A DNA stretch of 64,000 nt from Pirellulaceae bacterium (GTDB lineage: Bacteria > Planctomycetota > Planctomycetia > Pirellulales > Pirellulaceae), in NCBI GenBank assembly GCA_019636375.1, contig JAHBXS010000004.1:496001-560000 (forward strand). The letters run 5' to 3'. Every line of letters begins with the position of its first letter. Positions within the stretch are counted from its first letter, which is position 1. This document shows, in pieces, positions 32,739-51,089 of the stretch. Made by a program: the position numbers and the translations under genes. The notes under the pieces were generated by a model. That model was not told the DNA's origin. It searched no databases and saw nothing but the letters and a program-made list of their open reading frames with translations.

Positions 32739-35700
32739 TTAACTTGGCGGGCAGCGTTCGAGAGCGAGATCCTTAAGCCCCTTTAGATCAAGTTTTCCAG
32801 TCCCCAAGATTGGGATCGTTTCCACCTGAATAAAACTATCTGGAGAAGGGATAAATAAATTGGGGAACCCGGCGTTGCTAAGTCCTGAACGCAATTCGTC
32901 GACAGTCTTATTGATGTCAGAATAGAACACGATCAATCGTTCGCCTTTTCGCGAGTCGGGCACCGATGTAACGGCAACATTCTGAAGCCCCTCTCCCTCG
33001 CCTCCCAAAATCCGCATCAGTTCGTCTTCAATCGCCACATGCGGTACCATCTCACCGCCAATCTTCGAGAAACGGCTCATTCGTCCGGTGAGTTTGATAA
33101 AGCCATCCGAATCGATGATCGCCACATCGCCGGTGTTGTACCAACCGTCAACGACAATTTCGGCAGTCTTTTCAGGATGATTCAAGTAGCCCTTCATGAC
33201 GTTCGGGCCTTTGATCCAAAGCATCCCCGGCTGGTCGACGCCGAGGGTCTCTCCCGTGTCAAGGTCCGTGACCCGAGCGACAACGTTCGGAATCGGTCGC
33301 CCCACAGTTCCTTCCTTGCAATCGATTTGGAATTCATCCCGCCTTCGCGAGCCGGGAATGTTGACCGAAACCAGCGGTGAAAGTTCGGTCGTGCCATACC
33401 CTTCAACAGGTCGGACGCCGAATTTCTTTTCAAATTCTGCGGCCAACTCGATGGGCATTTTTTCCGCACCCACCACGACAATTTCCAAGCTCTTAAATTC
33501 TTCGGGCGTGCAGCGTTTTAAGTAGTTCCGCAAAAATGTTGGCGTTGCCAGTAATAACGTCCCCTTGTACTGCTCAACAAGTTTGCCGACCTGTCGCGCA
33601 TCGAGGGGGCTGAAGTGATACGTCCCCACAATATTCAACCCCATCGCGCCCCACAACGAAATCGTGTAGCCAAACGAATGGAAAAAAGGCAAGACACCTG
33701 TAATCACGTCGTTTTTATTCAGCGAGATCATCTGGTCGATCGCCCTGACGTTAGTCGCCACATTACGTTGGGTAAGCATCACTCCCTTGGGCTTGCCCGT
33801 CGAGCCCGATGTGAAGATCAACGTGATCAAGTCGTCGGCTTTGTTCTTGTGGAGCCCCAACCAGCGGGAAAGAATCGCCGCAGGTAACAAATAGGCCTGC
33901 AAGGCACAAATAATTTTGTCGGCCAACGTCACTTTGCTGCGCAACTCGTCCAGAAGAGTCTTAGTATTCCCTAAATCGAAACTGAGCTTCTCCAGGACCT
34001 TTTCGGTAGTGAGCACATGTTGCAATTCAGCTTCGCGAACGCAGTGGTCCATGATTTCTTGTGAAACGGAATAGTTCAGATTCACAGACGTTCGCCTGTC
34101 GAGGGCAAGTGCCATATTGACCACCACTCCCCCGACACTCGGCGGAATCAAGACACCGACATTTTGCTCATGGTCGTTCAGTACATGCCGACGCAACAGA
34201 CGCCGCAAGATCAGCGACCGCATCAACAACGAGCCACCACTCATGGTTTGCCCGGTTGAGTCTCCTGCCTTCAGCGAAAATAGCCGTTTGCGACAGGCTC
34301 GAATAAACATCTGTGCTGGCGAAATAAAAGTACTTGCAGGTTGATTCACAGCTTCGGCTCCTAAATTCATCACTTCTTGCCGCAACACAAATAAATTGTC
34401 AGGGTTTTGAATCGGCTTGCCAATATGCACCGAGATTCCTTTGCGGAAATGCTTGGGCAATTTTTTAAAGGCTGGTCCATCGGAGTAACTAAAGATCGTT
34501 CCCCAGACCTCATCAATGTAGATGGGGATCACCGGATAGTCGCTCCCATCGATGATTTTGAGTAGTCCCGGTTTGAACGATTTGACTTGGCAATTTCGCG
34601 ATAGGCCCCCTTCCGGAAAAATCCCGATCACTCCCCCGTCATCCAGGATTTGCCGCGCCTCACGGAGGCTTTTGATGATTGCTTTGGGGCCACCAGAAAT
34701 CAAAATCACGCCTGCCAGTTTTCCAAACCAACGCATGAACCAATGGTTAAAGTTTCCAGCCCAAGCGATCATGTGAACATGATGATGGGTAGACAACATC
34801 AGTAACGCGGCATCTAACCAGCTCGAATGATTGGCGATCAACACCGCCGGGCCTTTCTCAGGAATGTTCTCCACTCCGTTGATCTTAACCCGATAGACGA
34901 TTCGCAGAAGCCAGAAGAACATTACCGTCGCCATTTGCCGCGCGAGCATGATGGCTGAATACAAAATCACCGGAACGGTCAAAACCGCCATCGCAAGAAA
35001 AACGCCTCGCGATGACAACAGTGGCTGTTTCGAAGCCTGCCGCACGGCAGATTTTATGAGACGTTTTGTTTCTAGCTTTGAGTCGCCGACTTGCGGATCG
35101 TTGATTTTGTCACGTAAATCATCGTAAACGGCCAAGTCCACTTTGGTCTTTTGTGTCGGGCCATTTTTCAATTGGATGTCCAGAAAAATCATCTCCGCAA
35201 GTGCCGCATGGCGAGCCTCTGCCGGCACCGCATTGACCAACTCTGCGATTCGCTCGACATTTCTGTCGGCCTCTGGAAACTTCTCGTAAGCCGTCAGTGC
35301 TGTACGTACGGTTTCCTGGAGCGGTCCATCCAAACTCGCGACTTGGTATTGAGTCGGCAAGCGGGCCGTCGAGGGTTCCCAAGTCGCCGTTCGTAACAGC
35401 GGAAACAGAGCCCCCGTCGTGACCATCACTCCACCAAACAACATAAAGTTGCATGCCGCGAGAATCGAACCTCGTGATGCGGCCGGACTGCGATCTTGCA
35501 GATAGGACGAAAGAGGCACGTCAAAAAAACCTCCCGACGCCCCGAGCAACCCCAAAATCAAACAGGCCACAGCAAGTTGCCAGCGCGGTGAGAAACCAAA
35601 CATGAAATGCTGGGGGGCAAACGCCAACATCAGGGCGAACAACATCATTCCTATCGCAGCCCACGGAACTAGTCCCAACTCGATTCGACCGCGCGAAGCA

Positions 35701-36620
35701 AATCCCGCCGCAACACTCCCGAGTCCTACTCCCAACACTAACGAGATCAACAAAGGATTCCGTTCGGCGTCGAGTGCCGATCCGCTCTCATCCGAAAAGG
35801 CATCGATATTGATTTGAGCGATCGCCGCAAACGACCAGAAAAAGACTACGCCCAACGCGACGCGGAACAAACGGCGATTGGCGAACAACGCTCTGAAGTC
35901 TCGAATCATTGCCAACGGGACATTCCGAGGGAAACGCAACCCAGGGCTGGACGCAGGCATCTTGCGGATGAAAAAACTCAGCAAGGTTCCGACAATCGCG
36001 TTCCCGATCATGATGACCGCAGCGACCCACAAATGCGACTCGCCGCGCGGGGCCGTGAAATCACTCAACCATCCGCCGATTGACATTCCGATCACCGTCG
36101 CCGTGAGCGTCGCCAAATTGAAAAGGCCGTTCCCTGACGAGATGGTTTTCTCATCTAGGAGTTCCGGGATCGTGCCGATCTTGGCCGGGGCGAACAGAGC
36201 ACTTTGCGTCCCCATCAAAAACACGACTGCCAGCAAAAACTCAAAGCTCTGTATCCATACCGCCAAAATGGCCAACCCCATGATCACGATCTCGGCGACT
36301 TTGCAACCGACGATCACTTGGCGTTTGCTAAACCGGTCAGCGAGCCAACCAGCGGGAACTTGGAACATTAGATAGGGTAAGACGAAAAACACCGTCCCCA
36401 GCGCCAAGACGGCAGCGTGGTCCGCTGGGTCGGTCCAAAATTGTTTACCCAGCCCAATCACGAGCCAACGCGAAACGTTATCGTTGACGGCCGTCAGCCA
36501 GTTTGTCCACAGCAGACTTTGGAAACTCCCTCCCCAAATCGAGTCTCCAGTCCGTGGTGGCGGGGTTGGCTCCAAATAACTCAGGTTGCGATCTGGGGTT
36601 TCTTGCGTCATCGGTGACAA
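32739..36620 (-). CDS. LplT-like transporter fused to acyltransferase and acyl-ACP synthetase
   Basis: 1,293 residues in three modules. Residues about 25-430 are an MFS permease like LplT (lysophospholipid flippase), with GWLADRFSKRQV. Residues about 570-780 are a PlsC-type acyltransferase with NHSSWLD (HX4D) near 594 and FPEGGLS. Residues about 800-1290 are an AMP-forming ligase with LIFTSGSTGKPKG near 930 and YGTTELSP and WYNTGDVA. The combination imports lysophospholipids and re-acylates them in one chain, as LplT plus Aas do in enterobacteria. A stretch of about 130 residues between the first two modules has no known family. Confidence 0.92.
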   Translation of the reverse strand: MSPMTQETPDRNLSYLEPTPPPRTGDSIWGGSFQSLLWTNWLTAVNDNVSRWLVIGLGKQFWTDPADHAAVLALGTVFFVLPYLMFQVPAGWLADRFSKRQVIVGCKVAEIVIMGLAILAVWIQSFEFLLAVVFLMGTQSALFAPAKIGTIPELLDEKTISSGNGLFNLATLTATVIGMSIGGWLSDFTAPRGESHLWVAAVIMIGNAIVGTLLSFFIRKMPASSPGLRFPRNVPLAMIRDFRALFANRRLFRVALGVVFFWSFAAIAQINIDAFSDESGSALDAERNPLLISLVLGVGLGSVAAGFASRGRIELGLVPWAAIGMMLFALMLAFAPQHFMFGFSPRWQLAVACLILGLLGASGGFFDVPLSSYLQDRSPAASRGSILAACNFMLFGGVMVTTGALFPLLRTATWEPSTARLPTQYQVASLDGPLQETVRTALTAYEKFPEADRNVERIAELVNAVPAEARHAALAEMIFLDIQLKNGPTQKTKVDLAVYDDLRDKINDPQVGDSKLETKRLIKSAVRQASKQPLLSSRGVFLAMAVLTVPVILYSAIMLARQMATVMFFWLLRIVYRVKINGVENIPEKGPAVLIANHSSWLDAALLMLSTHHHVHMIAWAGNFNHWFMRWFGKLAGVILISGGPKAIIKSLREARQILDDGGVIGIFPEGGLSRNCQVKSFKPGLLKIIDGSDYPVIPIYIDEVWGTIFSYSDGPAFKKLPKHFRKGISVHIGKPIQNPDNLFVLRQEVMNLGAEAVNQPASTFISPAQMFIRACRKRLFSLKAGDSTGQTMSGGSLLMRSLILRRLLRRHVLNDHEQNVGVLIPPSVGGVVVNMALALDRRTSVNLNYSVSQEIMDHCVREAELQHVLTTEKVLEKLSFDLGNTKTLLDELRSKVTLADKIICALQAYLLPAAILSRWLGLHKNKADDLITLIFTSGSTGKPKGVMLTQRNVATNVRAIDQMISLNKNDVITGVLPFFHSFGYTISLWGAMGLNIVGTYHFSPLDARQVGKLVEQYKGTLLLATPTFLRNYLKRCTPEEFKSLEIVVVGAEKMPIELAAEFEKKFGVRPVEGYGTTELSPLVSVNIPGSRRRDEFQIDCKEGTVGRPIPNVVARVTDLDTGETLGVDQPGMLWIKGPNVMKGYLNHPEKTAEIVVDGWYNTGDVAIIDSDGFIKLTGRMSRFSKIGGEMVPHVAIEDELMRILGGEGEGLQNVAVTSVPDSRKGERLIVFYSDINKTVDELRSGLSNAGFPNLFIPSPDSFIQVETIPILGTGKLDLKGLKDLALERCPPS

Positions 36621-37301: not shown

Positions 37302-37685
37302 TCAGGAGATAGTTACAAACAGTCCGGCCAGCATCACAAATGCCAAAAAACTCTCGTCGGTTTTATCGTAACGGGTTGCAACGCGTCGGTAGTGTTTCAT
37401 TCGGTTGAACATCCGTTCGATGATGTTTCTTTTCTTGTAACTCTCTTTGTCATGTCGGCGTTTGCGAGTTCCTGACCGAGAGGGAATAACTGGTTTAGCC
37501 TTTGACTTTCGAATTGCCTGACGAACATCGTCACTGTCGTAGGCTTTGTCCGCAATCACCTCTTCGGCATTCTGGCCCTTGATCAGTTCCTTGGCTTGGG
37601 TCACATCATGCTGCTGACCGGGAGTCAAAATGATTTGTTGCGGCTTGCCTTGCTCATTCACAGAGGCGTGAATTTTCGTGGTCAA
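37302..37685 (-). CDS. IS5-type transposase, second frame
   Basis: 127 residues with the rest of the DDE domain: LTTKIHASVNEQG, the second Asp in VIADKAYDSDDV, and the Glu in RNIIERMFNRMKHYRRVATR. It overlaps the first frame by four bases and is read by -1 frameshifting. The stop lies in the left terminal repeat. No sign of decay. Confidence 0.88.
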   Translation of the reverse strand: MTTKIHASVNEQGKPQQIILTPGQQHDVTQAKELIKGQNAEEVIADKAYDSDDVRQAIRKSKAKPVIPSRSGTRKRRHDKESYKKRNIIERMFNRMKHYRRVATRYDKTDESFLAFVMLAGLFVTIS

Positions 37686-38059
37686 CCCGCCTCGTGAGCG
37701 ACCGATAGCTTGTTTTTCTTGCCCCCTTTTGCACCAGCGGCATGCTGGTGAACACGAACAATGGTACTATCCAGAATCAGTGACTCAATTTCTTCTTCAA
37801 CACCAAGTTCTCTGCTGATTTTCTGCCAGACACCATTGACTGCCCAACGTCGAAATCGCTTGAATACCGAATTCCATTTTCCGAATCGCTCCGGTAAGTC
37901 GCGCCATGGTGCACCGGACCGGGCAATCCAAACCACAGCATTTACAAACAATCGGTTATTTTGGGCCGTCCTTCCAGGATCCTGTTTCTTGCCGGGAACT
38001 TGGTTCTTGATCTGTTCCCATTGAATATCATTCAGTTCGTACCTTCGTGACATTTTCAT
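37682..38059 (-). CDS. IS5-type transposase, first frame
   Basis: 125 residues containing the N-terminal DUF4096-like segment (YELNDIQWEQIKNQVPGKKQ, then RLFVNAVVWIARSGAPWRDL) and the first catalytic Asp in LILDSTIVRVH. It ends in the second frame's start region; a -1 shift near the A/G-rich run encoding AKGGKKNK (about 37708-37735) continues into the next frame as KQAIGRSRGG. Such shifts make full-length transposase in this IS group. Confidence 0.88.
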   Translation of the reverse strand: MKMSRRYELNDIQWEQIKNQVPGKKQDPGRTAQNNRLFVNAVVWIARSGAPWRDLPERFGKWNSVFKRFRRWAVNGVWQKISRELGVEEEIESLILDSTIVRVHQHAAGAKGGKKNKLSVAHEAG

Positions 38060-38182: not shown

Positions 38183-40183
38183 TTAGGAATTTCCTCGCGG
38201 CGCGAACTTGTGAACGTGGAGCACCTTGACGGTTTCCGCGCAGACGGTCAAGAATCGTTTGCCCGACGAGTAGACTTCGAGCTCATCCAAAATCTCTTGG
38301 GCTATGTCTGCCGGACAAATAATTTCGATCCGAACTCTCGGTTGAACGTTGTAATTGTCGACACCGACGTCATGCCGACCGACACCTGAACACGTAGCAG
38401 AAGTGTAGCCGCTGGCACCTAATTCCAGAATTTTCTTGACAATACTCGTTTCGATCTCTTGCTCGCAGACGATTGTCAATCGTTGAATATTCGTCAGTCG
38501 GCGACTGCGAGTCGAAAGATGGTGATCTGTATCTGGTGACATGCGATCCAACCCGATGAGTTCTAAACGCAATCCTTGCATCTTAAAATCGTCCTCCAGT
38601 GAATGAAGTTTTTCCATCACACTGTGATCAACAAGGCGTGTTTTGCTTAGGTCCAAAATTACGCTTTTTCCCTGAAACAAGCCGGCCTGTTCAACTTGGC
38701 GTCGCACGGGTATCCAGTTGCTAAAAATTACAGAGTCACCCGCCAAGATTCGCACCGTCGCTCCATCAACCGGTTCTGTTTTCAGTTCAGGATAAAACAA
38801 TGTTCTCAATGGCACGCCGTGAACGACATGAAAAAAGAACTTTAGCCCAATTCCGATGGCGATGCCGATCAGCAAATCGGTAGCCAATACAGCGATCAGA
38901 GTGGTGACAAAAATAACGAGTTGCTCTTTGCCGATTCGATAGACGTTGATGAATTCTTGCGGATGAGCAAGTCGAAATCCGGTGTAAACCAACATACCCG
39001 CCAGCGCAGCTAACGGAATTAGATGTAGCACTGTGGGAATCAACGTGACGCATACGAGCAGGAACATGCCGTGCCAAAAGTTTGAAAATCGCGTCTTTCC
39101 GCCGTTATCGATGTTGGACTTACTACGCACAATCTCCGAGATCATCGGCAATCCGCCAATCATACCTACGGCGAGATTCCCGACGCCGACTGCCAGGATA
39201 TCGCGGTCCAGATTACTCCGACGTTTCCATGGATCAAGCAAATCGATGGCCTTGGCGCTCAGTACCGACTCTAAACTTCCGATGATGAAAAACAGTGCGA
39301 CCCATTTCCACGCCTTCAGTTCCAGCACAGCACGAAAATCCGGTGTTTGAATTTCGGAGAAAATTCCGAACATGCGATCTGGCATACTCACCAAATATTG
39401 CTCACCCAGTTTGTACTCGTGATTTTGCAAGTGGTACGAATGCTCATGCAACAAATCGAAAACGATACCCAACGGGATCGCCACGGCCAACACGACTACA
39501 GGCGAGGGAATGTATCGTAAAACCAGAAAAAATTTGCTTGCGATTGGCCACAGAAACATGATGGCGATACTTAAAATTCCGATCAGTGCTATGGCTGGGT
39601 TGGCTTCTAGTAAAAAGTGCGGAATTTCTCGCAACAGCTCCAGCGGTTCGCCACTTGCAGTAACCCCTAAAGCCACTGGAATTTGTTTTGAGATAATAAT
39701 GACCCCAATCGCAGCCAACATGCCGTGGATCGCCGCAACTGGGAAGAAATCCCCCAAGATTCCGGCCCGCACCAGGCCGAACCCAATTTGCAAAACGGCC
39801 GCCGCCACGCCGACAGCCAAAGCCGCGCGGTAGGCACTGAGATCGGCTGCTGTCCAGCCGCCCAACATGCCATCACCCCCAAACGACTCGATGCATCCAA
39901 TCAGGATCACAATTAAACCGGCCGCCGGTCCTTTGATCGTGAGCTCTGAATTGCTGAAAGCCATTCCCGCCAATGCCCCAATGACGGCGGTAAAAACACC
40001 TGCAATTGGCGGAAATCCCGAAGCGACTGATATGCCGAGACAAAGTGGCAATGCTAATAAAAAGACCATGAAGCCAGACATCATATCGGCCCGCCAATAA
40101 CGTCGAAAACCGGCCCAATCACCGACAGGTTTATCACTGTCAATTAAGTTTTGAGTGTGTTCGTTTTGCGATGAGCTATTCAT
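38183..40183 (-). CDS. SulP anion transporter with STAS and SbtB/PII-like domains
   Basis: 666 residues. Residues about 25-450 form a SulP transporter core ([41 protein letters not shown]), related to the bicarbonate transporter BicA. Residues about 470-550 are a STAS domain ([20 protein letters not shown]). Residues about 565-655 resemble the PII-like protein Sbt[40 protein letters not shown], then [17 protein letters not shown] and [12 protein letters not shown]. SbtB binds adenine nucleotides and controls bicarbonate uptake in cyanobacteria. The gene overlaps the upstream NuoM-like gene by eight bases and is last in the DAB operon, so bicarbonate is the likely substrate. Sulfate is the alternative. 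Confidence 0.85.
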
Positions 40184-41645
40184 CTGAATGTTCCCCTGAA
40201 ATATGGGCGGATTCTCCCCCTGGATGATTTAAATGTTCTGAACTGTTTGGCGCGATACGGCGATTCAGTAACTCTTGAGCGGCATGATAACGCGACGAGA
40301 TATTGGGTTGCGGAATGATGCCACCTAGCACCATCAGGGCGCAAAACAGACCAATGACTAGTTTTTCAAAAGGCCGCGGTTGCATCGAAATCGAAGCTGG
40401 AGCGACCGATCCTGTAAAAATTCGAAAATAGGCTCGCAACGCACCGATCCCGTTCAACGCCATTACGAGCACGACCAATGCACCGACGTATGAATAGACA
40501 TGAATCGAACTCTCAACCAATAATTCAGTTCCTACGAAACCGACCGTTCCAGGGAACCCAATTCCGGATAAGACCGCCAACAAGAAAAAACCTGCCAAGG
40601 CAGGCATCTGCCCGTACAGTCCATGAAATCTCGCCAGCGAAATTCGACCTACACGACCTTCGACCGCCCTGATGACGATTCCCAAAGAAACTAATGAGAT
40701 TCCCGACGAAATCCATAGACTCAATCCACCAGTCAATCCGATGCTGGTCACGGACTCCAATCCAATCAGAACCAGCGAAATATTCCCCAGCACCAAATAG
40801 GCAAAAAATCGGCGGGTATTCGTTTGCACAACCAACATTCCACCGGCATACACGGCTGTCGCCAAAGAAACGAGGGCAATCGCTCGCAAGACTTCGGCGG
40901 GAGCGATTGGAAACACCAAACGAACGACACCAAGTGCTCCAACCATCGGCACCACAAAAAGAATCGCCGTTCCCAAACTCGCCCGGTCGAATAAATCGAT
41001 GAGCCAAGTGTGAAATGGAATGCAGCCGCAACGAATGACCAAGCCCAAAGCAATTAAACCAATTCCGACCCCTCCAAACGTCGATTGGTTCTCGGTAACC
41101 ATGACGATTCCACCGCCGATTCCAATGAGTAGTAATGACAACAATTGATGAACGGCAAAAAACTGCCAGACTTGTCCACGCAATTTCAGTTCAATCACGG
41201 GCAAGGCGTTTTGCAGGGCGAGTAGCACGAAAAACCAACGCGGTTCCCGACAGCTAATTAATAGTAACAGCAGCGTCAGTGAAGTAAGGGTTAACGCAAA
41301 CGGGAATCGACTTTGTTTCGATCGCGGAGTGACGACAACTACGGCTAGGTACAGAGTGGCGACAAATGAAAACAGCGGGGCACTCAGTTCATCGATTACC
41401 AGAACGTCCTTACCAAACCACGGCTCCCAGTAATTGAATCGGTCATGGGCTTCAAATGCTCCCAGGCCGACGAAATCGAACCATGCGGCCAGAGTGCATA
41501 GGAGCGTGCCGAGCAAGGTAATCGAACTCACCCGCAAACGCCAATCGGCGTCACGTATCACTCCTACGATCACGGCGGCAATGATTGGCAGCGTGATCGC
41601 AAGTTCTAACCAAAATCCGTGTAGCTCAAGCATCGTTTTGGCCAT
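40176..41645 (-). CDS. Second proton-conducting NuoM/NuoL-like membrane subunit of the DAB operon
   Basis: 489 residues, about fourteen membrane helices of the Mrp/Nuo antiporter fold. Typical segments are [20 protein letters not shown], then [20 protein letters not shown] and [13 protein letters not shown]. It overlaps dabB by 20 bases at its start and the SulP gene by eight at its end, so it is translated with them. Usual DAB systems have one such subunit; this one may form a second proton path or be structural. The C-terminal 40 residues are hydrophilic and His/Asn-rich. I do not see the Lys in the usual helix-broken position (RCGCIPFH instead of KSAQVPFH). Confidence 0.82.
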
Positions 41646-43005
41646 CCTTGCTGCGTGAGACTCCGCTTAGTTTTTCGCTGGTCCAGGCAATCCAATTGGA
41701 CTCCAATCGGCTACACCATTGAAAAAACGACGAAAACGGATTGACGAAAATCCGGTCCAGCATGGTGTCGAGGTAGCCACGTTCCAATCCAAATCGATAC
41801 CAACTTTGCTGGATTAAACTTGGTTTTTTGGTGTCGATGGCTAAGGAGCTCAAATGGGCGATTTTCTTGCCGAGTGCGGTTTCGAGTTTGAAATAGTCAT
41901 GCAACAAATTCGAGGCCCTCAGCAGTTGCAATGTGCGGAGCAAAGCGTGTCCAATGATGTGAAACAACGCCAAGTAGTACCAACCCATTCCGATCTCGGT
42001 AATGATCAAACCGACCTGCGTCAGCGAGGCGAATGCCAACACGCTCTTAATGTCCGCTTGAACTCGCCCCGCCATGTTTGCGAAAATCGAAGTCGCCAGA
42101 CCTAACACGATAACCAGGACGGTCAACGCCATTGAGGCCGCGATGATGGGAGTTGCACGCAACAACAAGAACGCCCCCAAGTGAATCGATAGTGCGCCAT
42201 AAAAAATGGCACTCGATGGCGTCGGCCCCTCCATCGCTCTGGGCAGCCAACCCGAGAATGGGACCAAAGCAGATTTGCCGGCTGCGGCCAAGACTAGCAA
42301 CAGCCCAACACTTAACGCTTCCCACTCTTTCATCACCGAGGTTGCGTAGGGCCAAGCTCCGGCACCAGTCAAATGATCGAAATCGCCATGGCCGGTTACG
42401 TTGTGCATGATCACAGCGGCTATCAAAAAGAACGCATCGGCCAATCGGTAAATGGCCCAGATTCGCAAACCATTTTCCACGGGTGCCCTGCGTTCGTGGA
42501 AAAATCCCACGAGCAATGCCGAGGCCAAGCCCACAAGCTCCCAACCGAAAAACAAGACTTCGATGGTGCCTGCCAAAAAACTTGTGGTCAAACCAAACGA
42601 GAATATGGCATAATAGAGAAAAAAGCGTTGGTATCCCGACTCGCGGTGTAAATAGTTTGAAGCAAACGCCGCTACCGTTCCACACAGCACATAAGTCAAT
42701 ATCACCAGCGGCAGCGAAAGACGATCAAATACAAATTTGAGATGGAAATAAAAGTGTTCGTTAGGTATCGCAACCCAATCGCCAATCTCCCAGACCCGTT
42801 CCGCTTGCCCAACCACAATCATCAAAACGGCGACACCCAAACTACCCATGAGTCCCACAAGATTCGCAATCATGGCGATTCGTGAAATTGATTGCTCGGA
42901 CAGTCGCATTGAGAACAGGTTGCTCAATCCAATGATTGCCGCCAAAACACCGGGACTCAAAATTGCCATCCCGGCAAACTGCACAAACCAAAATGTCTCG
43001 TCCAT
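41626..43005 (-). CDS. dabB: DAB inorganic carbon pump membrane subunit (NuoL-like)
   Basis: 459 residues, about twelve membrane helices. VLFFGWELVGLASALLVGFF has the conserved Glu, and LAAAGKSALVPFSGWLPRAM with EGPTPSSAIFYGALSI is the NuoL proton-channel signature. In DAB complexes the subunit is believed to couple cation movement to CO2 hydration by DabA. It lies 22 bases downstream of dabA. The C-terminal soluble tail (about 380-459) is longer than in a minimal subunit. Confidence 0.88.
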   Translation of the reverse strand: MDETFWFVQFAGMAILSPGVLAAIIGLSNLFSMRLSEQSISRIAMIANLVGLMGSLGVAVLMIVVGQAERVWEIGDWVAIPNEHFYFHLKFVFDRLSLPLVILTYVLCGTVAAFASNYLHRESGYQRFFLYYAIFSFGLTTSFLAGTIEVLFFGWELVGLASALLVGFFHERRAPVENGLRIWAIYRLADAFFLIAAVIMHNVTGHGDFDHLTGAGAWPYATSVMKEWEALSVGLLLVLAAAGKSALVPFSGWLPRAMEGPTPSSAIFYGALSIHLGAFLLLRATPIIAASMALTVLVIVLGLATSIFANMAGRVQADIKSVLAFASLTQVGLIITEIGMGWYYLALFHIIGHALLRTLQLLRASNLLHDYFKLETALGKKIAHLSSLAIDTKKPSLIQQSWYRFGLERGYLDTMLDRIFVNPFSSFFQWCSRLESNWIAWTSEKLSGVSRSKDGQNDA

Positions 43006-43020
43006 CTTTAATTTCCTTTA

Positions 43021-43117
43021 GCCTATCTCAAAAGGGGTCAGACCCTATTGAGGCTGGACCAGATTTACTTTTTTTCGTCGTTTCGCCGGAGAGGGTCTGA
43101 CCCCTTTTGGGATAGGC
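43021..43117. repeat. 26-bp inverted repeat spanning the dabA stop codon
   Basis: gcctatctcaaaaggggtca followed by gaccct (43021-43046) and agggtctgaccccttttggg followed by ataggc (43092-43117) match at 25 of 26 positions around a 45-base loop. The stop codon of dabA is in the left arm and the last 27 codons or so of dabA run through the element. It could act as a terminator or mRNA stabiliser between dabA and dabB, or be a mobile palindrome. The same kind of ggggtcagacc repeat is familiar from other genomes, unchecked here. Confidence 0.8.
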
Positions 43118-46100
43118 TTTAACGCCAACCGGTGCGCAAGAGATGTCAATCATGGCAAACCCTAAATCCTCACGGTTGCCGTGATACCAGTCCCACGACG
43201 TCTTCGCTCGGGGACATGTTCCCGTGGAAGTTCCGTAGGGGATGAAACTGTCTTGCACATATCGCAAAACCTCTGCGGAGTCGGGAGACATGAGTGCTAA
43301 TTGCAGCCAGTCGTTTTCGACTAAACGAGCAAAACCTGGATTTGATTTCAGAATCTTCTCGATTCGTTTTGTCGTTGTCTCAATCAAGAGCAAGAGTCGC
43401 AATGGTTTGTGTATCTCCACCATTTGCCAAGGCAAACCCGTTCCCAAATCACTTTGGGCACCGTCCATGACACCGAGCAGTGATGTAATGTTGTGTGGCA
43501 GTTTCGTGCTGCAACCCAGTTGGACAGGATCGGTGTAAGAGAAGAAATATTCCAGATTGATGCCAGCACAAACCGGCACGACGGCGGCCAAAATTCTCGA
43601 CAAAATCGTGGCGTCGTCGTCATCGCAACCCGGATCATAACTGTGCAAAAAAGCTCGTCGATCCAGGTACAGGCCCCGAGTTCTTTCGCGCCGTCCAACG
43701 ATACAAATCGCATTGGTTGCGTGACCGCACTCCGGTCTGGCTTGGGACAAGTCCTCGATGCGGGTCAAAACGTGCTTGTACGCCTCGGCTGGACTCAAAT
43801 TGAGCGGGGCCGAAACAAATCGACGGCAACGCTCATGGGCATTGCGTTGACTGACTTGGACCATTGCCTCCCGGGCTGTTGCAAGGGCCGATCGAAACCC
43901 ATCGGGAACACTCGATTCGTCCAGGAAACTGACTTGATCGCCGCCAGTGTTATGGTAGCCGCCAACGAACCAAGTGGTCGCGGGAATTTCCAAGGCTCGC
44001 TCAGCCAATACTGAGCGGACTCGCGGGTCATTGGCCATTTTTGCAAACGCTCGGGCGTTTGGGCCACCGTGACCACCCCCGCATGCCCCACAGTTATAGG
44101 CCGAGCCATGTGGATTGTTGAGACTGCTCGAGCCATGCCCGACGACGATCACAAGAGGCGACCAGTTTTCAACCAGGCCAATGTCAGTCAACAATCGCTC
44201 GACGATGTTTGCCATTTCAGCGACCGTAAAACCTCTGTGGCGATTGTCGGTCTCAAGGGCTGGCAATTCCAATTGCAATTCCGTCTTGTGCGGAGTGGCC
44301 ATCCAATCGTCGAACCGGTTTCGCAAGACGCCTGCGATTCTCGGGAAGAGCACACGCAAGACGAGCGGAATGGCTGCCACCACACCTGCAATCGACGTCA
44401 CTGCACCGGACAACAGAGATCGACTACCGAGATGCAAACCGTGCAGCCATTCGGCAAATCGCCGCCGCCGACCTGCACGTTCTTGCCCGACCTCGTGAAG
44501 CTCTTCGCACACGCGTTCGGTGACCAGATGTTGCGGTTCGATTACGATTGGGCACAGCGGAATCGCTTGGAACGAGTCTGCCGCTTGATAGTTCATGGCC
44601 ACACTGAAAAATCCGGCCGCTCCCCAAGTGCGAACTCGCGGCTCAACCTCTTCCAAATGTCGTCGAAACGACTCCTCGCGTTCGTCAATGCAAGTGATGA
44701 CGTCAAAGGCCACACTTGAGTCCGATACATTTTCGGAGTGAAGATTGCTATCCAAACTATCAACAATCGGATGTGACTGATTTCGCTGATGAATTGCCTG
44801 CACTGCGTCAAAACACTCGTGCCGCCAACGACGTTCCAAAGCCAATTGGAAAACGTAGCAGCGTTGCGTCTCATCAAACGCGCGAATCTCGGTAAGCAGC
44901 TTTCGCCAGTTGGCAGGAGTTAGACCAAACAAAGTTTCTGGACGCCAGCCTCGCCCTTGAGCTAGTTGAAAAATCGAGAATGCCTCGCTGCGAACCTGAT
45001 CTGCTACTCGATATTCCGAGTGGTTCCGGTAGCGATCCTTCAAGTCGTGAAATCCGACGTCACTTCCAAGTTCACGGTGCATCAGCCAATTCAGAGCTAG
45101 CTTGTCCAGAATCAGCCTTACCGCCAAAAACTCTGTCAGTGTTCCAGGAGGAACTGCACGTGTAACACGATCGGGACGAGTTTCCATCTGCCAGATCATT
45201 CCGGCAAACCCGCGAATCGCGAGCAGTGAATGCGTCACATACTTTTCAATTTCCTCGGTGCTGACTCCCATCGCGTGCAAATTGTCCGCGATACTTTGCA
45301 GAGGTGACAACTCGTCATTGGCGAGTGCGGCAAGTTCGTCTGCCAGCGGTATTAGCCAACTGGGCAACAGCGGGTTAGGATGTCCGTATATCGCAATAAA
45401 CGCTTGCAAAAATCCCTGCTGCCGGCAGGGCAATGGCGACGGGCTCATTCCCTGGTCGATGAATACCACACAAAATCGAATTAGCAACTCATGGACTAAT
45501 TGATCGCTATCAACACCCGTTAGTTCATAGAATGCATCGCGGTGTCGCACCGGGGGCTTCAATGCCGCAACGTGTGGGTGTCGCGAAACGGCGTGAAAAC
45601 AGACTTGCCACAGTAAATGCAGCGTGAATGCCTCCCGAGTTGCGTCATTCCAAGCCTCGCAGTGTTCCAATTGAAAGTCTCTACCCAAACTTTCACACTT
45701 CTTTCGAAACCGTAGAAGTTCAAGATCGGTGTGCGGCGTGTGATGATGAGGCGGTGCGTTGACCGAAGCCAATAAAGCCAATACCCATCGTTTGGTGTCG
45801 TTGATTAGTCTTTTCTTGGCGTCGGCGGGTATGCTTCGATCAAATCGCTCCAGCGAACGATTTTCGGCAAACACCCATTCGAGTTCATTGGGCAAAACCG
45901 CTTGCAAGGGCTGATACAGCATTTCACGCCACAAACTGAATCGAGTTCCCAAAAAGCCAACAAACGTTTCGGCTTGTTCGCCCAACGATTCCAACAAAGC
46001 GTCTTCTAAGTCCTCGTTGGAAAACTCAGCATTCGTCCATGCTTGCCGATACCAAGACTCGGGCAATAGCGCGCGGCAATTGAAATGCGAGGAAGCCTGT

Positions 46101-46273
46101 CGAACGGCCTCGATAAACGGCAAATGCTCGAAAGCATGCAACGTATTGTGGTGGATAAAAACGGTAATTGGACCTTGGCCCGGCAAATAGTGAACAGCAT
46201 GATCCAACGCCTGTTCGACAATATTTTTTGAGCCAGCCAAACTACCAGTCTCGGACTGGTTGGGAGCTGTCAT
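43028..46273 (-). CDS. dabA: DAB inorganic carbon pump, carbonic-anhydrase-like subunit
   Basis: 1,081 residues of the DUF2309 family. The predicted zinc ligands are present: CIDERE (Cys 528, Asp 530), VVGHGSSS (His 713) and NCGACGG (Cys 728), in the order of the characterised Halothiobacillus protein. DabA converts CO2 to bicarbonate in the cytoplasm in a direction driven by ion flow through DabB, so it traps carbon. The N-terminus HYLPGQGPITVFIHHNTLHA is conserved. The C-terminal tail (GQTLSGETTKKSKSGPASIG) is encoded by a palindrome and is probably an extension. First gene of a four-gene operon. Confidence 0.94.
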   Translation of the reverse strand: MTAPNQSETGSLAGSKNIVEQALDHAVHYLPGQGPITVFIHHNTLHAFEHLPFIEAVRQASSHFNCRALLPESWYRQAWTNAEFSNEDLEDALLESLGEQAETFVGFLGTRFSLWREMLYQPLQAVLPNELEWVFAENRSLERFDRSIPADAKKRLINDTKRWVLALLASVNAPPHHHTPHTDLELLRFRKKCESLGRDFQLEHCEAWNDATREAFTLHLLWQVCFHAVSRHPHVAALKPPVRHRDAFYELTGVDSDQLVHELLIRFCVVFIDQGMSPSPLPCRQQGFLQAFIAIYGHPNPLLPSWLIPLADELAALANDELSPLQSIADNLHAMGVSTEEIEKYVTHSLLAIRGFAGMIWQMETRPDRVTRAVPPGTLTEFLAVRLILDKLALNWLMHRELGSDVGFHDLKDRYRNHSEYRVADQVRSEAFSIFQLAQGRGWRPETLFGLTPANWRKLLTEIRAFDETQRCYVFQLALERRWRHECFDAVQAIHQRNQSHPIVDSLDSNLHSENVSDSSVAFDVITCIDEREESFRRHLEEVEPRVRTWGAAGFFSVAMNYQAADSFQAIPLCPIVIEPQHLVTERVCEELHEVGQERAGRRRRFAEWLHGLHLGSRSLLSGAVTSIAGVVAAIPLVLRVLFPRIAGVLRNRFDDWMATPHKTELQLELPALETDNRHRGFTVAEMANIVERLLTDIGLVENWSPLVIVVGHGSSSLNNPHGSAYNCGACGGGHGGPNARAFAKMANDPRVRSVLAERALEIPATTWFVGGYHNTGGDQVSFLDESSVPDGFRSALATAREAMVQVSQRNAHERCRRFVSAPLNLSPAEAYKHVLTRIEDLSQARPECGHATNAICIVGRRERTRGLYLDRRAFLHSYDPGCDDDDATILSRILAAVVPVCAGINLEYFFSYTDPVQLGCSTKLPHNITSLLGVMDGAQSDLGTGLPWQMVEIHKPLRLLLLIETTTKRIEKILKSNPGFARLVENDWLQLALMSPDSAEVLRYVQDSFIPYGTSTGTCPRAKTSWDWYHGNREDLGFAMIDISCAPVGVKAYPKRGQTLSGETTKKSKSGPASIGSDPF

Positions 46274-47114: not shown

Positions 47115-48815
47115 ATGAAGACTTTTGCAGTCATTTTTCATTTTTTTGAAGATTCAAAACGGCGGCGAAATCTGGCCTCGCTCGCAAAACTATTGGCTGC
47201 GTTCGGATTAATTGTGTTAGTGTTTACAATTGTTTTCAAGGTCTTAATGGCCCTTGAAGGCCAGGAGCATTCTTGGGTCAATGGGATCTACTGGGTTTTT
47301 GTCACAATGTCGACTCTCGGCTACGGTGACATTGTATTCTTGGGGCCTATTGGCCGACTGTTTACAGTAGTCGTGATTATCTCTGGCGCGACTTTTATGT
47401 TGGTTTTGATCCCGTTCATGTTCATTCAATTCTTCTATGTCCCCTGGATGGAGGCACAAGCTGCCGCCCAAGCACCGAGGATGCTCCCCAAGTCAACGTC
47501 GGGACATGTGATCATGACCAATTTTGACATTGTAGGACGAGCACTGATTCAATTGCTGAATCGTTTTCGAATTCCCTATGTTGTCATTGTCGATGACTTG
47601 GCAGAAGCCCTACGAATGTCTGACGAAGGCATTCACGTAATGGTCGGGGATCGAGATGATCGCGATACGTATCAAAAGGCCCAAGTCGAACGTGCGGCGA
47701 TGGTGGTAACCACGCGCAGTGATACTTCCAACACAAATATCGCATTTACGGTTCGAGAAATCTCTCCTGATGTCAGAATCGTCGCCTCGGCTTCTTCGAC
47801 AGCGTCCGTTGATATTTTAGAACTCGCAGGTTGCAACCAAGTCATTCAACTCGGGGCCATGCTCGGCCAAGCCCTATCGCGCCGAGTATTGGGAAGAGAT
47901 GCCAGAACACATGTCGTCGGGTCTTTCGGTAACTTGTTAATCGCCGAGGCTGCGGCGACAGGGACTCCATTGGTCGGACGGACACTTCGGGAAGTCAACC
48001 TTGATGAATTCAGTCGCGTTAATGTGATTGGAGTTTGGGACCGGGGGCGATTTACTTTGGCTGGCCCCGAAACGAAAATACAAACTTCGTCGGTTTTGCT
48101 TCTGTCCGGAACCCGAGCCGATCTAGACGAATATGATTCTTTGTTTTGCGTTTACGGAAAGTCGGAAACGAGGGTCATTATTATTGGAGGTGGACGCGTC
48201 GGTCGGGCCACTGCCAAAGGTCTGGCAGAGTCTCAAATCGATTATTTTTTGATTGAAAAAGATCCTGCTCGAATTCGCGATCCACGCACTTACATCTTGG
48301 GAGACGCTGCCGAACTGGAAGTTTTGGAAAAGGCGGGGATTCGAACTTGTTCAACCGTGGTGATCACTAGTCACGATGACGACATCAACGTCTATTTGTC
48401 GATTTACTGCCGCAAACTTCGGCCTGACGTGGAAATTCTTGCTAGGGCCAATCAGGATCGAAACGCAAGCACGCTGCATCGCGCAGGTGCCGATTTCGTG
48501 ATGTCGTACGCTTCAATGGGAAGCACGAACATCTACAACCTATTGCGCCGTGACCATTTCCTAGCTCTTGCCGAAGGGCTAGATGTCTTCAAAGTCGACG
48601 TTCCTCCAGCATTAATCGGCAAATCTTTGGCCGAGTGCCGATTTAGGCAAACGATGGGGTGCAATGTCGCGGGGATCGAAATCAACGGCCAATGCCAAGG
48701 CGTCCCAAACCCCAAACAACCACTTCCCGCAAACGCCAAACTTATCATGATCGGAGACACCGAAGGCGAGGAGCGATTTTTTCAGGCTATTAAGACAATG
48801 TCCGCCAAAACTTAA
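47115..48815 (+). CDS. Potassium channel with two RCK/TrkA-type modules
   Basis: 566 residues. Two helices flank the selectivity filter TLGYGD (about 67-72) within VFVTMSTLGYGDIVFLGP. Two cytoplasmic RCK units follow: first with HVIMTNFDIVGRALIQLLNR and VMVGDRDDRDTYQKA, then RVIIIGGGRVGRATAKGLAE with YILGDAAELEVLEKAGI. A TrkA_C-like part sits between and after them. Such channels (MthK/GsuK-like) are gated by nucleotides or ions. The second RCK keeps the GxGxxG turn; the first does not. Single gene, convergent with ktrA-like. Confidence 0.9.
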   Translation: MKTFAVIFHFFEDSKRRRNLASLAKLLAAFGLIVLVFTIVFKVLMALEGQEHSWVNGIYWVFVTMSTLGYGDIVFLGPIGRLFTVVVIISGATFMLVLIPFMFIQFFYVPWMEAQAAAQAPRMLPKSTSGHVIMTNFDIVGRALIQLLNRFRIPYVVIVDDLAEALRMSDEGIHVMVGDRDDRDTYQKAQVERAAMVVTTRSDTSNTNIAFTVREISPDVRIVASASSTASVDILELAGCNQVIQLGAMLGQALSRRVLGRDARTHVVGSFGNLLIAEAAATGTPLVGRTLREVNLDEFSRVNVIGVWDRGRFTLAGPETKIQTSSVLLLSGTRADLDEYDSLFCVYGKSETRVIIIGGGRVGRATAKGLAESQIDYFLIEKDPARIRDPRTYILGDAAELEVLEKAGIRTCSTVVITSHDDDINVYLSIYCRKLRPDVEILARANQDRNASTLHRAGADFVMSYASMGSTNIYNLLRRDHFLALAEGLDVFKVDVPPALIGKSLAECRFRQTMGCNVAGIEINGQCQGVPNPKQPLPANAKLIMIGDTEGEERFFQAIKTMSAKT

Positions 48816-48977
48816 TTTAACGGCTCAAGTCTATCTCGCCAAAGCAATCACACATGGCAGCTTATTGTGTTTTAAATGTCACATCAGTCGCCGATCAGTG
48901 GACAAATATCGCGAATTTGTATTTACGAAAAAACAATTTCTGTACGACCATTTTGAGAAATAGGGAGACAAAAATGG

Positions 48978-49646
48978 TCAGTCGATTCGAGCAATTTTCT
49001 TCAGCGAATCGTCGCTTCCGGCAACAAATAGCGTGTCGGACTCCTTGAGGCGATAGTCCGGTCCTGGAGTGGCGTGGAATGTGTCCGTTAAGATGTCATG
49101 GATCGCCAAAATCGTAATGTCAAACTTTTGCCGAATCTCTAACTCGCCAATCGATTTCGAAACCCAAATATTGGGGATCCCCATCTCTTGAATTGAAAAG
49201 TTAGTCCCCAACGGAAGGTATTTCAGCAGTGACTTTCCGCAAATCTTGGCCGCCAATCCTAACGCTGAGTCTCGTTCCGGAAACACGGTCTCGGTAACGC
49301 CGAGCTTCTCCATGACGCGTCGGTGGTCATTCGAAATCACTTTCACAAAAACTTCCCGGATTTTTAGATCTTGCATAGCTAATACCGCAAGGATACTCGC
49401 AGTGATGTCGTCGCCCGTTGAGACGATCGCTGCATCGACATTGTCGCCGCCGATCATTCGTAGGGTTTCTAAGCTCGTTGCATCGGCAACAGCCGCCCGC
49501 GTGATGATCGGTCCGATGCGATCAATTGCATCGGCGTCAAGGTCAACGGCAATCACCTCATGGCCAAGTTGCGATAGTTTTTCTGCAACCGCAAATCCAA
49601 AATTGCCGAGCCCAACGACCAAAAACCGTTTCTTTTTATCCGCCAC
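48978..49646 (-). CDS. TrkA/KtrA-type potassium uptake regulatory subunit
   Basis: 222 residues: KRFLVVGLGNFGFAVAEKLS at the N-terminus is the Rossmann GxGxxG site of the RCK_N domain, VIAVDLDADAI follows, and a TrkA_C domain ends the protein (PGPDYRLKESDTLFVAGSDD). It binds ATP/ADP or NAD(H) and gates the KtrB/TrkH membrane subunit. It lies nine bases after the transporter gene. Single-RCK size matches KtrA and not the duplicated TrkA of enterobacteria. Confidence 0.92.
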   Translation of the reverse strand: MADKKKRFLVVGLGNFGFAVAEKLSQLGHEVIAVDLDADAIDRIGPIITRAAVADATSLETLRMIGGDNVDAAIVSTGDDITASILAVLAMQDLKIREVFVKVISNDHRRVMEKLGVTETVFPERDSALGLAAKICGKSLLKYLPLGTNFSIQEMGIPNIWVSKSIGELEIRQKFDITILAIHDILTDTFHATPGPDYRLKESDTLFVAGSDDSLKKIARID

Positions 49647-49655
49647 AATGATTCC

Positions 49656-51089
49656 TTAACCTATCAAAACATCTTCTTGTGCAAACCGAACTCCCGTCGA
49701 GCCGCTTCTATATCGCGATTCAAAAGCAGTCAATAATGCTAATGGCCCAATTCTTCCCACAAACATCATGATTACCAGGATCACTTTTGCAGTTCCCGAC
49801 AAGGTATCCGTGAAACCCATCGACAGGCCTACCGTGTTCATCGCACTTACGACCTCAAACATCCGTGCTAGAATTTGGCCATCTTGCCCGCGTGGAGCAT
49901 CAAAAAATTGAAGGCCAAACAAAGCCAAAATCATCAAAGTGGTCATGATCACAAAAATGCTCGTAGCCCTTTGGACAGTATTGTCTGGGATCGTCCGATT
50001 ACCAAAGTCTACCGTTGAACGACCACGAATTTTCGACCAAGCCAACAGCCCCAACAACATAAAAGTAGTGATTTTCATGCCACCCGCCAATGAGGCCGGG
50101 GCGCCGCCGATCATCATCAGCACCATCGTGAACAAAACAGTGGAATCCGATGCCGTCCCATAGTCGATTGTATTGAAACCTGCGGTTCGGCAGGTTGCTG
50201 ACAGAAAAAAGGAATTCGTGAACTTGTCCGTCAAGGTCCATCCGTCAAATGATTGATTCCATTCAAAAATGCCAAAAATCACCGAAGGGATGACTAGGCA
50301 CAACACCGTCCCATACAAAACGACTTTTGAATGAATGGAAATCCGAAAATGGTCACGTTTCTTTTTGGCTCGCATCCAAAGAAAAACCTCTTCTAGCGTG
50401 ATAAAGCCAATCCCCCCGCAAATCACGAGGAGGGAGACGATGGTTAAAGTGGCAGGTGAATCCGCGAATCCCATCAACGAATCGTGGTTCAGCGAGAAAC
50501 CAGCATTGCAAAATGCGCTCACGGAATGAAATATCGAGGGCCAAATCGCCTCTCGCCAGCCCAGCGTCGGAGCCCAAGTTACGTAGAGTGAGACGGCTCC
50601 TAAGGTTTCGAACAATAGGGTGAATCCGACGATGTCTCGGATTAGTTTTCTGGAGGGCAAAAACGGAAGCGTACTTCCTGTGTTAGCAACAGCGATTTCA
50701 GTTTTCAGGCTGGGACGTAATCCGATTGAGGAAATAATGGCACTGGCCAAGGTCAGAATCCCTAACCCTCCCAACTGAATCAAAATCAACAAATACAACT
50801 GTCCCCAAAATGTAAATGTCGTTCCTGTGTCGGCCGCAACAAGTCCCGTGATACAGATTGCACTTGTTGCCGTAAACAACGAATCGATAAATCCCAACCG
50901 CTCGTCCGTACACAAGCCAGGGATCAACAAGAAGCCGATGGTCCCCAATAAAATCATGCAAATAAACGACAGGGCCAACATTTCTGCCGGAGAAAGTCCA
51001 GTTCTCCTGAAGCGAAACGACTTTCGTTTCGGTATGTCCCGTCTTGGCGAATGAACATGCCCTTTTGAACGGTGTTTTTTGGGTACCAA
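49656..51089 (-). CDS. TrkH/KtrB-type potassium transporter
   Basis: 477 residues, about ten membrane helices. Filter-like motifs include SAICITGLVAADTGTTFT, SAFCNAGFSLNHDSL, CRTAGFNTIDYG and VSAMNTVGLSMG, each with the family's central Gly. It brings K+ into the cell, with Na+ dependence in the Ktr group. An N-terminal cytoplasmic stretch of about 30 basic residues (KHRSKGHVHSPRRD) is long for the family. Operon with the regulatory subunit downstream. Confidence 0.92.
   Translation of the reverse strand: MVPKKHRSKGHVHSPRRDIPKRKSFRFRRTGLSPAEMLALSFICMILLGTIGFLLIPGLCTDERLGFIDSLFTATSAICITGLVAADTGTTFTFWGQLYLLILIQLGGLGILTLASAIISSIGLRPSLKTEIAVANTGSTLPFLPSRKLIRDIVGFTLLFETLGAVSLYVTWAPTLGWREAIWPSIFHSVSAFCNAGFSLNHDSLMGFADSPATLTIVSLLVICGGIGFITLEEVFLWMRAKKKRDHFRISIHSKVVLYGTVLCLVIPSVIFGIFEWNQSFDGWTLTDKFTNSFFLSATCRTAGFNTIDYGTASDSTVLFTMVLMMIGGAPASLAGGMKITTFMLLGLLAWSKIRGRSTVDFGNRTIPDNTVQRATSIFVIMTTLMILALFGLQFFDAPRGQDGQILARMFEVVSAMNTVGLSMGFTDTLSGTAKVILVIMMFVGRIGPLALLTAFESRYRSGSTGVRFAQEDVLIG

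Follow-up and report, generated by a model that had tools for sequence, protein, structure and literature searches.

We analysed a 64,000-nucleotide stretch of the genome of a Pirellulaceae bacterium (the window; contig JAHBXS010000004.1, positions 496,001 to 560,000, assembly GCA_019636375.1), which carries on its minus strand four closely packed genes, dabA, dabB1, dabB2 and sulP, the last encoding a SulP transporter extended by a STAS domain and a C-terminal PII domain of the SbtB type. The four packed genes had been described in an earlier sequence-only reading; their coordinates and strand and the overlaps of 20 bases (dabB1/dabB2) and 8 bases (dabB2/sulP) were found again, and dabA lies 22 bases from dabB1. 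The genes and the domains of the SulP protein are as follows.

43028..46273, minus strand: dabA, long form, 1081 amino acids, beta-carbonic anhydrase-like CO2-hydrating subunit (PF10070, E 1.1e-217)
41626..43005, minus strand: dabB1, NuoL-like membrane subunit, 459 amino acids (PF00361, Proton_antipo_M, E 8.4e-40; PF00662)
40176..41645, minus strand: dabB2, second antiporter-type (NuoM-like) membrane subunit, 489 amino acids (PF00361, Proton_antipo_M, E 6.5e-22)
38183..40183, minus strand: sulP-STAS-PII, 666 amino acids (PF00916, E 1.3e-51; PF00543, E 5.8e-10)
38819..40183, minus strand: SulP membrane domain, residues ~1-455, with ion-site residues E305, S309, E350 and R353
38501..38818, minus strand: divergent STAS domain, residues ~456-561 (profile alignment; Pfam STAS, E 0.019)
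38213..38500, minus strand: SbtB-type PII domain, residues ~562-657 (Pfam, PDB sequence searches, AlphaFold2, Foldseek)

By sequence, the four genes are a DAB-type inorganic-carbon (Ci) system, as the sequence-only reading had proposed, and the DabA active site is complete. The Cys2-His zinc site and the Asp-Arg dyad of DabA are present as C528, D530, R532, H713 and C728, which are conserved in nine of nine DabAs aligned; the corresponding residues of Halothiobacillus DabA2 are Cys351, Asp353, Arg355, His524 and Cys539, with the same His-to-Cys spacing of 15 residues (PMC13144422). The NuoL/Mrp-type DabB partner takes the form of two PF00361 subunits, and the top NCBIfam models for dabB1 are NuoL. 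What the earlier reading had not reported is that this DabA is a long form and that long forms as a rule go with two antiporter-type subunits. The canonical planctomycete copies aligned measure 837-954 amino acids, and the extra length in the window lies mainly around residues 101-144, 176-222 and 398-442 and in a C-terminal tail. In nearly every locus examined that has a long-form DabA (~1000-1100 amino acids), two such subunits accompany it; dabB2 comes after dabB1 in almost all long-form dab loci, and in the complete loci both subunits are present even where no SulP follows (loci including L075-L084). We found no description of this three-gene layout in the open-licence literature searched. 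The DAB/DAC systems (DabA-DabB of Halothiobacillus, Tcr_0853/0854) share the C-x-D-x-R, H, C zinc site and the NuoL-like partner, whereas in the window system DabA exceeds the canonical planctomycete copies by ~130-240 amino acids, there are two subunits of antiporter type, and the fourth gene encodes a SulP-PII protein; DAB2 consists of two subunits and DAB1 has a small third one (PMC13144422).

In the SulP protein, Pfam Sulfate_transp spans residues 31-428 and is followed by a STAS segment whose Pfam match is short of the cut-off. The segment aligns with the STAS end of SLC26Dg in a family profile, and its secondary structure runs beta-beta-alpha-beta-alpha-beta in a weak full-length AlphaFold2 model, built from ten sequences and used for the C-terminal secondary structure only (predicted local distance difference test, pLDDT, 53.5; predicted template modelling score 0.36). 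The STAS part of this SulP/SLC26 protein is thus real but divergent.

Sequence comparison and predicted fold identify residues ~562-657 as a genuine PII domain belonging to the SbtB branch. The Pfam P-II model matches residues 567-636 with 39.9 bits against a gathering score of 25. A single-sequence search of the PDB ranked TTHA0516 and all solved SbtBs above any GlnB or GlnK, and a nine-sequence profile gave the same order (TTHA0516, 3.9e-17; SbtB, 1.7e-7). The AlphaFold2 model of the domain alone, a monomer (pLDDT 81.6), is predicted to have the ferredoxin-like order beta-alpha-beta, beta-alpha-beta, and in a Foldseek search of the PDB it found only SbtB or TTHA0516 at ranks 1-38 (SbtB, E 2.3e-8), with CPII at rank 39 (template modelling score 0.62) and GlnK-type PIIs after it. 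CPII, the carboxysome-associated PII-like protein, is likewise linked to bicarbonate; it is a standalone protein of carboxysome context and matches less well than SbtB. An identity as GlnB/GlnK or CPII was considered and rejected, since both score below SbtB in sequence and fold searches. The SbtB-like C-terminal domain of the sequence-only reading therefore holds in Pfam, PDB and Foldseek searches and in the genomic company of its standalone kin described below; that reading had staked the claim on a PII-like fold, and structure prediction returned one, for the monomer.

The survey of SulP-PII fusions and their dabAB linkage that the same reading had suggested yielded 27 fused copies besides the window. 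Since the loci were collected for their similarity to the window protein, the fractions apply to this family rather than to SulPs in general. SulP adjoins dab genes in 18 of the 26 other copies with readable flanks, in several gene orders. The order dabA-dabB1-dabB2-sulP-STAS-PII is found at 16 loci including the window (one of them, L006, cut by a contig end), and three loci are laid out otherwise: L065 begins with sulP, in L056 sulP is divergent, and the same probably holds for L058, in which no more than a fragment of dabA is seen. Eight fused copies have no dab gene nearby, among them L010 on a contig assigned to Methylococcaceae, and the copy in L012 is cut by a contig end. The same gene order in 15 other loci indicates that the arrangement in the window is not due to chance; its retention in many related bacteria marks it as real and makes a function probable. 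The planctomycete setting noted earlier stands, not as a peculiarity of this genome but as that of a planctomycete-wide family. SulPs of PII-less and distant lineages also lie beside dab genes in several gene orders (L069-L071, L073, L083, L139, L140); on the SulP tree the dab-linked PII-less SulPs fall outside the PII-bearing group, and the presence of PII needs five changes. The SulP-DAB linkage appears, from these sequences, to be older than the fusion. All components are known; a search of the open-licence literature yielded no description of the fusion, of its linkage to DAB or of planctomycete DAB operons, and a prior description in subscription literature is possible. PII-like genes near SulP-type transporters are reportedly mentioned in work on Hydrogenovibrio Ci transporters and CPII.

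A profile search of 392 Planctomycetota genomes detected the PII domain in fused form ~20 times and as a standalone protein in a similar number of cases, and in 398 Pseudomonadota genomes the nearest relatives were standalone small proteins, bar one fused copy. An SbtA-like gene lies directly upstream in 13 of the 14 planctomycete standalone loci examined (BLAST E ~1e-33 or better), L127 being the only one in which BLAST detected none, and a gene of the SbtA family (Pfam Sbt_1) lies just upstream in all five pseudomonadotal loci tested. In both phyla together, the relatives thus come just after the gene of the Na+/HCO3- transporter SbtA in 18 of 19 loci checked, which suggests that this type of PII accompanies Ci transporters; in the window the partner is a SulP, putatively of bicarbonate, with dab genes. 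On the PII tree, which was built from a short alignment and has many unresolved forks, the fused domains group together, and their monophyly is not rejected (p 0.45). Next to them stand five SbtBs of planctomycetes whose partners are unusual SbtA-like proteins. These five neighbours (L129, L130, L132, L135, L136) mostly have GQGHH at the base of the T-loop, their SbtA-like partners measure ~400-600 amino acids, and the pairs are perhaps of the SbtA2/SbtB2 type.

From what was observed directly, namely which genes and domains are present, the active site of DabA, the conservation and the linkage, we consider it rather probable that the operon encodes a DAB pump together with a SulP transporter of bicarbonate or another anion that is gated in cis by its own SbtB-type domain. 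DabA and the two antiporter-type subunits would hydrate CO2 vectorially, powered by the proton motive force, while the co-translated SulP would carry bicarbonate (or else a coupled anion) through this membrane, more probably coupled to H+ than to Na+. The PII domain would set the activity of SulP in response to a bound small-molecule metabolite, for which a low-phosphate adenine nucleotide (AMP, cAMP) or another signal of carbon or energy status is the most likely candidate, and the whole could amount to the self-regulated carbon uptake envisaged in the sequence-only reading. SbtB physically binds the SulP-family transporter BicA in cyanobacteria (PMC13249358), so a covalent SulP-SbtB pair is fitting, and this is an independent line of evidence.

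Several results weigh against this proposal. The HCO3- and Na+ ligands of BicA are Thr69, Asp258, Thr262, Gly300, Ala301 and Thr302 (PMC13249358); profile alignments place Ala87, Glu305, Ser309, Ser349, Glu350 and Ile351 at these positions of the window SulP, almost invariant in its clade. Four of the six differ outright (T69 to A87, G300 to S349, A301 to E350, T302 to I351), and most of the BicA set is replaced. In Synechocystis SbtB, Arg43 and Arg46 of the RxxR motif hold the phosphates of ATP or ADP and a C-terminal CGPxGC loop (R-loop) is a redox switch (PMC10117731). Both arginines are present in 15 of 24 standalone relatives versus 1 of 27 fused domains, with His and Gly in their places in the window, and the R-loop is absent from the window domain and from all aligned fused copies; CGPxGC occurs in some SbtBs only, and Cyanobium SbtB is also without it (PMC10991534). 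Locus L011 has lost the PII domain and retained the dab linkage, no dabA match was obtained in five genomes with SulP-PII (G088, G239, G275, G345, G392), and the association of PII with dab on the tree is not independently significant (three pairs on supported branches, sign test ~1). Moreover, SulP proteins act as dimers and PII proteins as trimers.

Because the RxxR clamp and the redox R-loop have been lost, the ligand of the fused domain need not be that of SbtB, and the SbtB-type ligand assumed in the sequence-only reading finds neither its phosphate clamp nor its R-loop in the window domain. The G-x-G at the base of the T-loop is mostly kept in fused domains. Should the domain in fact be nucleotide-binding, AMP, cAMP and similar species with few phosphates would be likelier ligands than ATP or ADP.

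The SulP could instead carry another anion (sulfate, chloride or a carboxylate), or serve to balance charge and pH for the DAB pump, as a Cl-/HCO3- exchanger or a valve for bicarbonate release, with PII tuning the exchange, an alternative that we hold unlikely but worth serious attention. The ion site accords with it, since it resembles neither that of BicA nor, at the sulfate contacts, that of AtSULTR4;1, a proton-coupled transporter for which Glu347, Arg393, Gln112, Tyr116 and Ser392 are reported (PMC8298490). In profile alignments, window E305 matches the H+-coupling Glu347 and R353 matches Arg393, the only two of the set that are kept, while Q112, Y116 and S392 are replaced by L47, I51 and V352; an invariant E350 near the conserved Arg is unlike either transporter. 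The generic NCBIfam SulP model also scores higher (148.8 bits) than BicA (107.5 bits), all far under the cut-offs (BicA needs 880). Reading the substrate from the ion-site residues was tried and rejected, as the window matches neither the BicA nor the SULTR signature. With BicA it shares the SulP-STAS architecture, an acidic residue on transmembrane helix 8 (E305 for D258) and S309 for T262; it differs at the four positions given above, in the extra PII domain and in the dab neighbours. A bicarbonate-type SulP in the sense of BicA, as the earlier reading could be understood, is thus not borne out, nor are the sulfate-contact side chains of AtSULTR4;1 kept. The ion site is suggestive of H+ coupling; on the anion it gives no firm indication. 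Since it is neither BicA-like nor sulfate-transporter-like, we infer bicarbonate from the context: inorganic carbon rather than another anion is indicated by the SbtB-type domain, by the recurrence of SulP beside dab genes in several gene orders and by the binding of BicA by SbtB (PMC13249358).

The PII domain could also have no sensor role and be an appendage that is passive or in decay (a relic or a stabiliser of the dimer). Its amino-acid substitution rate (dN) is ~1.5-6 times that of the membrane domain in the pairs compared, the clamp is missing in 26 of 27 fused copies, and beyond its absence from L011 the domain is degenerate in L050, L051, L057 and L059-L063. However, the ratio of dN to the synonymous rate (dS) is 0.08-0.33 where dS could be estimated (several pairs are saturated), well under 1, which despite the high dN shows a domain that is fast-evolving and yet mostly constrained by purifying selection. 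Most dab-linked copies, however deeply diverged, retain the G-x-G T-loop base, the VRIE strand and the C-terminal strand, and the fold is predicted with good confidence. We therefore find an appendage improbable.

Less credible still is a role of the fused domain as a sensor for the entire operon that regulates DAB in trans, with SulP and DabA/B in one membrane assembly. The translational overlaps and conserved adjacency suggest stoichiometric co-assembly, but the fusion also occurs in genomes without dabA, and long-form dab operons exist without SulP-PII nearby. That the domain is a canonical nitrogen-status GlnB/GlnK reporting 2-oxoglutarate can practically be set aside, for although the domain falls under the Pfam family P-II, searches by sequence and by fold place SbtB structures and TTHA0516 ahead of every GlnB/GlnK, and the standalone kin are found with SbtA.

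The proposed uptake of bicarbonate through DAB and a PII-gated SulP has to be seen against the carbon metabolism of the host. No match to the RuBisCO large chain was found in its genome (94% complete), so the bicarbonate would probably serve biosynthetic carboxylations and not the Calvin cycle. The genome has a beta-carbonic anhydrase gene, and a second, canonical dabA at C2:938685 (region C2:938051-950761; L089, L124, L004) adjoins a weak carbonic anhydrase-like open reading frame (ORF), with a short SulP match ~10 kb off. A separate Ci-type fusion, a 794-amino-acid open frame joining SulP to beta-carbonic anhydrase, lies at C4:658799-661093 (L002, L123). It is of the sort known from SulP-carbonic anhydrase pairs and fusions (can2-sulP, PMC6458275), which like the window system tie SulP to a CO2-hydrating protein; in the window, the CO2-hydrating partner is a separate DabA, and the fused part is a regulator and not an enzyme. 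The SbtA-SbtB system resembles the window in joining an SbtB-type PII to a putative Ci transporter, and the closest standalone kin are SbtB partners of SbtA, but here the fusion is covalent, a SulP (a dimeric family) replaces the trimeric SbtA, and the RxxR clamp and CGPxGC R-loop are absent.

The details of SbtB action need further investigation (PMC13249358), and a one-chain SulP-SbtB fusion makes SbtB control of SulP transporters such as BicA testable without rebuilding a transient complex. The fusion also links Ci sensing to DAB pumps in bacteria without detected RuBisCO, and the recurrent SulP-DAB linkage is a lead to the function of a large unassigned SulP clade. As a tentative possibility, the DAB pump (long DabA and two antiporter subunits) and a dimeric SulP bicarbonate transporter could form one assembly, jointly controlled by the built-in SbtB-type sensor, which would have given up the phosphate clamp in favour of a new ligand, the hosts being planctomycetes without RuBisCO. 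If true, inorganic carbon would here be sensed by a PII domain covalently joined to a transporter, and the genomes would provide evidence for SbtB-type control of SulP transporters outside cyanobacteria.

Around the operon, an IS4/5-type transposase in two overlapping ORFs (DDE_Tnp_1; DUF4096) lies at window positions 37302-38059 on the minus strand, ~124 bases downstream of the sulP stop, and potassium transport genes adjoin the operon at 47115-51089.

47115-48815, plus strand: TrkA-domain ion channel
48978-49646, minus strand: TrkA
49656-51089, minus strand: TrkH

Further along, at 32739-36620 on the minus strand, is a 1293-amino-acid fusion of an MFS transporter, an acyltransferase and an AMP-binding ligase, which resembles a one-piece LplT-Aas lysophospholipid system.

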